Positions 38,140 through 64,000 of a DNA stretch of 64,000 nucleotides are shown here, in pieces; position 1 is the stretch's first letter; each line of letters begins with the position of its first letter. The translations under genes were made by a program, and so were the position numbers. The stretch is taken from assembly GCA_902522325.1 (NCBI GenBank), contig CABYVA010000003.1, positions 1 through 64,000 on the forward strand, given 5' to 3'. Under the pieces are notes generated by a model, which did no database searches, had not been told where the DNA came from, and saw nothing but the letters and a program-made list of their open reading frames with translations. The stretch comes from an uncultured Pelagibacteraceae bacterium. GTDB lineage: Bacteria > Pseudomonadota > Alphaproteobacteria > Pelagibacterales > Pelagibacteraceae.

Positions 38140-38303
38140 TTTTTTTTGTAATATTAAATTTCTTAACACAGATTTTAGCCCTCTGGTAACAGTTATCCAC
38201 AGTGCATTTTAACTGGTTTTAAATGTTCTCGTTTTGATTCACTTTTGATTCACTTGCAGACTCAAAATACAACCTTTGTTGACTATATCTTAAATATGTA
38301 GTA

Positions 38304-62980: not shown

Positions 62981-62990
62981 GAATTACTTA

Positions 62991-63020
62991 TTGAATCTTC
63001 AGTATTAGGTTTTATATTAT
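62991..63020 (+). promoter_or_regulatory. Candidate promoter for the tmRNA precursor
   Basis: TTGAAT - 18 bp - TATTAT upstream of the GTTGG-TTTT-CCAAC hairpin at 63025-63038. Confidence 0.45.
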
Positions 63021-63024
63021 TAAT

Positions 63025-63284
63025 GTTGGTTTTCCAACTACGACGATAAACGAATTTCGTAATAAGCATTACGGACGTGGGGGCAGTACCCACCACCTCC
63101 ACCATATTCAACTTACGGGGGTGAACTAGGATCGACGGGTGTCTAAAGGCTATTCTTTCGTTCGGAATTGTTCCACCGTGACGGGCTAAATTATAATTGC
63201 AAATGATAAATTTGCTCTTGCTGCTTAATTAATTTATTAATTAAGTAACGGGGTTTTGGGGCACCTGGCAACAGAACGCCCCTT
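63025..63284 (+). ncRNA. ssrA: Circularly permuted two-piece tmRNA; acceptor piece ends CCACCA at 63104, coding piece starts ~63117
   Basis: Acceptor: GGACGTGGGGGCAGTACCCACCACCTCCACCA. Coding: GGGGGTGAACTAGGATCGACGGG; the 7-bp acceptor stem pairs GGGGGTG with CACCTCC (one wobble). Tag frame 63199-63228 GCA AAT GAT AAA TTT GCT CTT GCT GCT TAA = ANDKFALAA*; P5-like hairpin CTTAATTAA-TTTA-TTAATTAAG 63224-63245; 3' GGGGCACCTGGCAACAGAACGCCCC. Confidence 0.93.
63271..63284 (+). repeat. tmRNA 3'-end direct repeat, copy 1 (ACAGAACGCCCCTT), candidate att site
   Basis: Exact 14-bp match to 63889-63902. Confidence 0.6.
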
Positions 63285-63288
63285 GATA

Positions 63289-63753
63289 CTATTTTCTATC
63301 AACAAAAAACATTGTTACAAAATAAGTTAAAAGCACTCCTAAAAAACCAAATGGAACTAGTTTTTCAGATTTGAGAGGAAGAATTTCATTAAACGTTATA
63401 CCGATAGATATATCTACAAAATCACAAAATAGAAAAATTAATGGTAAACCTATCATCAAAAATAGTGGAAGAATTAATATATTTTTTTTATTTTTGATAA
63501 ATTTAATAATGTTGATGCCCTGATCTTTGTTCAAAAAATTGACAATAAAATTACCAACCACAAATAGAATTAGCACTAATGTCCAACCGACTGATCTTGG
63601 TAGAAAAGAACCTCGAAATTTTTCGGGGTTTGGAAACTCAACAAAAATATATCTAGGTATATAATCTATTAGATATGTTTCGGTTATAACTACTGATCCA
63701 AAATAAGAAGCACCTGCTATCATAAATATAATTATTTCGGAATTCTTTTTCAT
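63289..63753 (-). CDS. Uncharacterised membrane protein (~4 TM)
   Basis: 154-aa ORF with four hydrophobic stretches; lies between the two tmRNA-end repeats. Confidence 0.7.
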   Translation of the reverse strand: MKKNSEIIIFMIAGASYFGSVVITETYLIDYIPRYIFVEFPNPEKFRGSFLPRSVGWTLVLILFVVGNFIVNFLNKDQGINIIKFIKNKKNILILPLFLMIGLPLIFLFCDFVDISIGITFNEILPLKSEKLVPFGFLGVLLTYFVTMFFVDRK

Positions 63754-63771
63754 AAAGTCAGTTTAATAAGT

Positions 63772-63841
63772 ATTACTATGTACCTCAATCACAAAAATAT
63801 AACAAAAAAACATTAAATTACTATGTACCCAACTATGTACC
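63772..63841. repeat. Three short direct repeats: ATTACTATGTACC (63772-63784), ATTACTATGTACC (63817-63829), ACTATGTACC (63832-63841)
   Basis: Read directly from the sequence. Confidence 0.8.
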
Positions 63842-63888
63842 TTTTCAAAAAGATATATTTTATGCTATTATCTGACCAAGGGCGGGAT

Positions 63889-63902
63889 ACAGAACGCCCC
63901 TT
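63889..63902 (+). repeat. tmRNA 3'-end direct repeat, copy 2 (ACAGAACGCCCCTT), candidate att site
   Basis: Exact 14-bp match to 63271-63284; flanking GGGCGGGATACAGAACGCCCC forms a GGGCG/CGCCC stem. Confidence 0.6.
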
Positions 63903-64000
63903 ATTTTTTATATTTAGCGCTTTCCTCAAAAAATTTAATTCTCTCTTTTGCTTTCTCAATTTGATCAACCCACTCAAAATATGTCCAATGGCGACCTCTG
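63901..64000 (-). CDS. C-terminus of an uncharacterised protein running off the window (…RGRHWTYFEWVDQIEKAKERIKFFEESAKYKK*)
   Basis: Open frame to window end, TAA at 63903-63901; charged helical C-terminus. Confidence 0.5.
   Translation of the reverse strand, partial: RGRHWTYFEWVDQIEKAKERIKFFEESAKYKK

Follow-up and report, generated by a model that had tools for sequence, protein, structure and literature searches.

The described systems closest to the locus analyzed here are integron arrays and the ssrA islands of Dehalococcoides, and it belongs to neither. The integron attC site is 57 to 141 bp long and is organized in R''/L''/L'/R' boxes with a GTTRRRY crossover. In Dehalococcoides, direct repeats of the ssrA 3' end stand in tandem downstream of ssrA, and many of the islands are without integration genes (McMurdie et al. 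2011, PMC3146451). The 20-bp repeat of these islands is cut in the tmRNA T-loop, the islands are confined to the 100 kb after ssrA, and the serine recombinases DsiB/DsiA are present in many of them (PMC3146451). In the sections of PMC10872708 that bear on such elements, repeated 20-bp tRNA-Lys ends are described in an additive flexible island of "Ca. Methylopumilus," and tycheposons are summarized as elements of 4 to 200 kb with a tyrosine recombinase. In SAR11, an integron signature was sought in the hypervariable regions and not found (Wilhelm et al. 2007, PMC2217521).

The window, that is, the whole stretch of DNA analyzed, consists of the first 64,000 of the 69,906 bases of contig C3 from an uncultured member of the Pelagibacteraceae, and its ssrA gene lies close to its end (Table 1). 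In this gene, which is of the alphaproteobacterial permuted type, the acceptor piece is followed by the coding piece, and the predicted tag is ANDKFALAA (ARAGORN). As a sequence-only reading of the window had claimed, ACAGAACGCCCCTT occurs there twice, at 63271-63284 and at 63889-63902; within the 64 kb, these two places alone match it with up to 2 mismatches, at 0.13 expected. Also present, as reported with the two copies, are GGCA/GGAT contexts and stems of the form GGGGC..GCCCC and GGGCG..CGCCC, but the hairpins by themselves do not clearly surpass shuffled sequences in stability (z of -0.6 to -1.6). We also considered the second copy as a terminator and rejected this, the stability of its hairpin being no better than that of shuffles; nor is it simply the terminator of a neighbouring gene, as the same site borders unrelated cassettes in many genomes. 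The same reading had referred to ssrA 3' ends as classic tyrosine-integrase sites, but the site here is not the usual one. Since the acceptor end comes first in a permuted tmRNA gene, what recurs is the pseudoknot that closes the coding piece, not the customary T-loop/acceptor attachment site. Judged from the sequences, the ssrA 3' end is the primary attachment site, and its core ACAGAACGCCCC the recombination site.

Past position 64,000, where further site copies and an integrase might have been expected, contig C3 carries six more copies of the core, at 64469, 64883, 65122, 65554, 66378 and 66583, and no integrase. Counting the one in ssrA, eight copies of the ssrA 3' end stand on this contig as direct repeats and delimit seven units of 0.2 to 0.8 kb, with spacings between successive copies of 618, 580, 414, 239, 432, 824 and 205 bp. 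One small ORF occupies each interval, except for the 824-bp interval, which has three. The copy at 66378 has 1 mismatch in 11 and the copy at 66583 has 2, the farthest copy of the array being the most diverged. A methyltransferase gene follows 3' of the array, together with genes reading like a MazG-type pyrophosphohydrolase and a fumarase. Synteny of the segment does not extend to every relative, the distance from ssrA to mazG being ∼4.0 kb here and ∼0.34 kb in several relatives (L020, L021, L024 and L249). The proposed mini-element is the first of seven units rather than a lone remnant, while the description of it as a site-specific element at ssrA, without an integrase and either mobilized in trans or serving as a cargo slot, stands; it encloses one hydrophobic ORF and no integrase, as had been said.

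Table 1. Features of the ssrA region and other annotated elements in the window
Feature	Position	Strand	Note
SAR11_0636 sRNA	38185..38274	-	RF01827, 72 bits
ssrA, permuted two-piece tmRNA gene	62987..63285	+	RF01849 239 bits, E 4e-68; ARAGORN
Site 1 (ssrA end): left half GGGGCACCTGGCA + constant core ACAGAACGCCCC	63258..63282	+	
Cassette unit 1, 618 bp, core to core	63271..63888	+	
Unit 1 cargo ORF, 154 aa, hydrophobic	63289..63753	-	no Pfam match
Unit 1 left arm (3' end)	63744..63888	+	conserved with L047, stops at site
Arm word ACTATGTACC, copy 1	63775..63784	+	
Arm word ACTATGTACC, copy 2	63820..63829	+	
Arm word ACTATGTACC, copy 3	63832..63841	+	12 bp from copy 2
Site 2: left half GGGCGGGAT + core ACAGAACGCCCC	63880..63900	+	
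Cassette unit 2, start	63889..64000	+	extends to contig position 64468
Unit 2 cargo ORF, 3' part in window	63901..64000	-	L006:1901-2323; 140 aa, lipoprotein-like start, no Pfam match

The boundaries of the units coincide with the sites. Over its first 488 bp, unit 1 shares 89% identity with unit two of a related genome (G114), the match starting exactly at the site, and over its last 144 bp it shares 85% identity with the end of a unit in another (G113), the match stopping exactly at the site; on these alignments, unit 1 is a mosaic. In total, 77 loci yielded 181 sites with the constant core and 104 cassettes, which range from 88 to 5,810 bp (median, 693 bp). In 180 of 307 cassette-cassette matches, the homologous stretch of each partner begins or ends at the site, whereas random placement of the same matches gave a mean of 1.0 and a maximum of 3. 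Furthermore, in at least nine pairs of related genomes a site occurs with and without DNA between two copies. Here, joining the flanks of two sites recreates the arrangement of the other genome. In the cleanest case, G118 against G039, leaving out a 1,623-bp cassette joins flanks that align gap-free over 500 bp with 98.4% identity. Further pairs include G042/G009 (5,208 bp), G047/G121 (88 bp), G134/G141, G111/G033 and G257/G186, and the genome of the window pairs in this way with G114 (608 bp, 90.2%). Two combinations (L159/L303 and L168/L320) were left out of the count as the same genome in another collection.

Inside cassette families, the first ∼100 bp (right arm) and the last ∼130 to 200 bp (left arm) are conserved. 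The arms hold tandem words of 9 to 11 bp that are specific to the family and spaced by 11 to 12 bp, such as CAATGAAGT, ACATTGAAGT, TACACGAAGT, ACTATGTACC and GTCCGCACTA. For the two arms of one cassette read in the same orientation, the shared word was 6.5, compared with 4.6 after permutation (maximum of 5.6 in 2000). No excess was seen in the inverted orientation (3.9 versus 4.4) or in the cassette middle (4.55 versus 4.52). Matching arm words of at least 9 bp were present in 30 of 90 cassettes. In lambda attP, arm-type sites flank the core, and by analogy the arms of a cassette would flank its core in a circular form; core and arm repeats on both sides are found statistically for the set and individually in about one-third of the cassettes. 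One 128-bp unit (G149, L188:7551-7679) has no cargo and is made up of just the two arms. A cargo-less 128-bp unit also occurs at L049:9900-10027, giving a MITE-like element in two genomes and in different slots.

When the ssrA end was used as a query, many of the 151 genomes of the genus had extra short copies away from ssrA, and the 13-mer ACAGAACGCCCCT was present in 113 of them, in up to six copies each, compared with none of the 151 for the reversed control. Further genera within the family also carry site copies; the query does not extend as far as the next family. A search of species genomes for one cassette-type site gave 50 stretches, nearly all from Pelagibacteraceae with single-cell-style isolate names, and all named records are Pelagibacteraceae but one, which is labelled Alphaproteobacteria. 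Since the carriers include single-cell genomes, metagenome binning is unlikely to have caused the pattern. Slots other than ssrA follow rnhA (before a peroxiredoxin-like gene), pnp (before fabI) and other genes, all named from translations read by eye without a family search. One cassette (cl67) occupies two slots, behind rnhA in G079 and behind ssrA in G095. Immediately behind rnhA and pnp, numerous species have a resident copy of the tmRNA end (L044-L047, L049, L054 and L056).

A single ORF of at least 60 aa is found in 61 of the 104 cassettes, and 113 of 154 cargo ORFs run against the direction of the site. Their products match type I restriction-modification subunits, MrcB-like and other nucleases, methyltransferases and a monooxygenase, next to surface or secreted proteins and many unknowns. 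PADLOC assigned three cargo proteins to mad2 and one to mad5 (MADS defence) and also reported type I and IIG restriction models. A 110-aa protein (MQQQELFDFRRDILFERDNQ...) without a Pfam match is nearly identical in cassettes of several genomes (six loci) and is sometimes adjoined by type I restriction genes. The cargo was also considered as the source of the enzyme; no recombinase is among the commonest 25 of its 54 Pfam families.

With integron arrays and CALINs, this system shares small, mostly single-gene cassettes with precise boundaries, a directional site, stacking, precise exchange and the lack of a linked integrase. Unlike integrons, it came without IntI: the PF00589 proteins are only Xer-like and prophage-type, and the resident recombinase scored 24 bits against the integron-integrase model, with a cut-off of 265. 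Its site differs from attC in being a 12-bp core derived from ssrA, with ACAGAACGCCCC as the conserved part, plus arms, and inspection of the sites by eye gave no GTTRRRY/RYYYAAC pair in a consistent place. Further differences from integrons are the use of several chromosomal slots, the orientation of most cargo ORFs opposite to the site, and the family-specific tandem arm words at both ends. The bounding direct repeats of the ssrA 3' end are shared with the Dehalococcoides islands. In SAR11, however, it is the coding-piece end of a permuted tmRNA that recurs, the units are far smaller, slots exist elsewhere too, and the DsiB/DsiA-type module is missing (PF00239 in 0 of 44 genomes). As far as the sections of PMC10872708 describe it, the additive Methylopumilus island, whose host is likewise streamlined and aquatic, is similar in that the 3' end of an RNA gene recurs in it, and it may be a parallel case; its target gene is a different one, and those sections describe repeats rather than cassette ends, matched arms or empty-filled pairs. 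Tycheposons, in the summary given there, likewise are RNA-gene-targeted, cargo-carrying elements of streamlined marine bacteria (Prochlorococcus and others), but the SAR11 units measure 88 to 5,810 bp and have no integrase beside their sites. Tn7-like transposons do not fit, as the arm words are direct rather than inverted and PF00665 was found in 0 of 44 genomes, and neither do IS200/IS605 or REP-associated Y1 elements (PF01797, 0 of 44).

We consider it probable, at roughly two in three, that the segment is a unit in an array of non-autonomous, site-specifically integrating cassettes that are moved in trans, probably by a lambda-type integrase. The sequences show that each cassette has its core first and its left arm last, just before the next core. 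Insertion is precise, restoring the ssrA end and leaving a core copy on the far side, so that repeated insertions stack cassettes, and resident site copies after rnhA, pnp and other genes serve as extra slots. A cassette would excise as a circle, although no circular form was observed, in which left arm, core and right arm form a lambda-type attP, and strand exchange would be carried out by the tyrosine integrase of a transient helper (a phage, plasmid or other element) that is not seen in these genomes. The cassettes would thereby make up a shared pool of small adaptive genes for restriction-modification, nucleases, and secreted and membrane proteins.

The helper is the weakest step of this explanation. 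No recombinase gene was found beside an ssrA-type site at the loci inspected. In 177 genome look-ups, the tyrosine recombinases were a resident 317-aa Xer-like protein and a small number of integrases located beside tRNA genes or in other places. The Xer-like protein is encoded once in each of 39 near-complete genomes of the family, most of which have no other tyrosine recombinase. We examined extra integrases from the window's own genome, 13 other named genomes and several more as candidates, and the inspected ones were next to tRNA genes or within prophage or defence regions; among the matches listed, an ssrA-type site near such an integrase was confirmed in no case. One of them, a 424-aa integrase on contig C2 of the window's genome (L247:6410-7684), is located beside a tRNA-like gene with phage-like ORFs nearby, in what is probably a pelagiprophage or satellite. 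Serine recombinases (PF00239, above cut-off), Y1 transposases (PF01797) and rve proteins (PF00665) were each found in none of 44 genomes. Scanning IMG/VR with the 14-mer gave 72 chance matches, 0 of them in an ssrA-like context, and scans with two arm words gave 5 unrelated matches and 0 matches. Comparison of phage records with the arms and ssrA revealed no carrier, returning just phage tmRNA genes (e.g., that of Melnitz) and short matches to the pelagiphage HTVC008M.

An unlikely but the most serious alternative is that the resident Xer-like recombinase itself drives the cassettes, in an integron-like host system. It is present in all 39 near-complete genomes, mostly as the lone tyrosine recombinase, and its gene is located at HVR2, a hypervariable region with an integrase noted by Wilhelm et al. 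(2007, PMC2217521). However, no ssrA-type site is found near this gene, a fixed enzyme without an arm-binding domain would not be expected to go with element-specific arm words, and the palindrome TATTACTAa.GATAATTAATtGTTATCAaTAgTAAT, which is conserved directly upstream of the gene and is unlike the cassette core, corresponds to an xerS/difSL-type arrangement for dimer resolution. These sequence features suggest that the enzyme is a chromosome-dimer resolvase with its own dif-like site, and together protein and palindrome look like a one-recombinase dif system in place of XerC/XerD. The gene was seen between HVR2 and a 5S rRNA-like gene at 29 loci, including contig C5 of the window's genome (L219:1123-2040).

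Somewhat less probable still is an unrecognized class of recombinase, or a single-strand, attC-like mechanism acting on the folded site. The absence of the known enzyme families would fit this reading, as would the left halves of the sites, which vary in sequence yet keep their complementarity to the constant right one (combined pseudoknot score of 7.4, versus 4.5 ± 0.7 for shuffled sites). On the other hand, the b-stem rises just modestly above the shuffles and the a-stem is not above every one of them, the folding energies are ordinary, and the pairing can be explained because ssrA itself must keep its pseudoknot. Very improbable is that the repeats are dispersed transcription terminators whose neighbours differ by homologous recombination after natural transformation: sites do often come directly behind a stop codon, as at rnhA and pnp, or form the end of ssrA, with GC stems and then T, and recombination is frequent in SAR11 (PMC2217521), but 180 of 307 matches break at one point in both partners, filled and unfilled sites differ cleanly, and terminators do not predict conserved ends with matched arm words.

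The enzymes missing beside the sites, together with the palindrome of the Xer-like enzyme, lead us back to site-specific cassettes served by a helper in trans. Such a helper does not alone account for the variety of arm words, which would require many helper integrases, none of them seen in the genomes; a cognate arm-binding tyrosine integrase could reside in an unsampled helper.

SAR11 bacteria, whose genomes are streamlined, rank among the ocean's most abundant cells, and Pelagibacter is regarded as nearly free of mobile elements. In the open-access literature (subscription journals and preprints being outside the scope of the search), we found no description of SAR11 ssrA cassettes. A bolder proposal, which we put forward only tentatively, is that Pelagibacter runs an integron-analogous exchange of single genes, with matched arm words, slots at tmRNA-end pseudoknots and a recombinase or helper of an undescribed kind. 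The missing recombinase and the matched yet variable arm words pose direct, testable questions, and the 12-bp tag allows cassettes to be collected from existing single-cell genomes. The cassette system represents a concrete, sequence-recognizable route for the gain and loss of single genes in SAR11, including restriction-modification genes relevant to phage defence.
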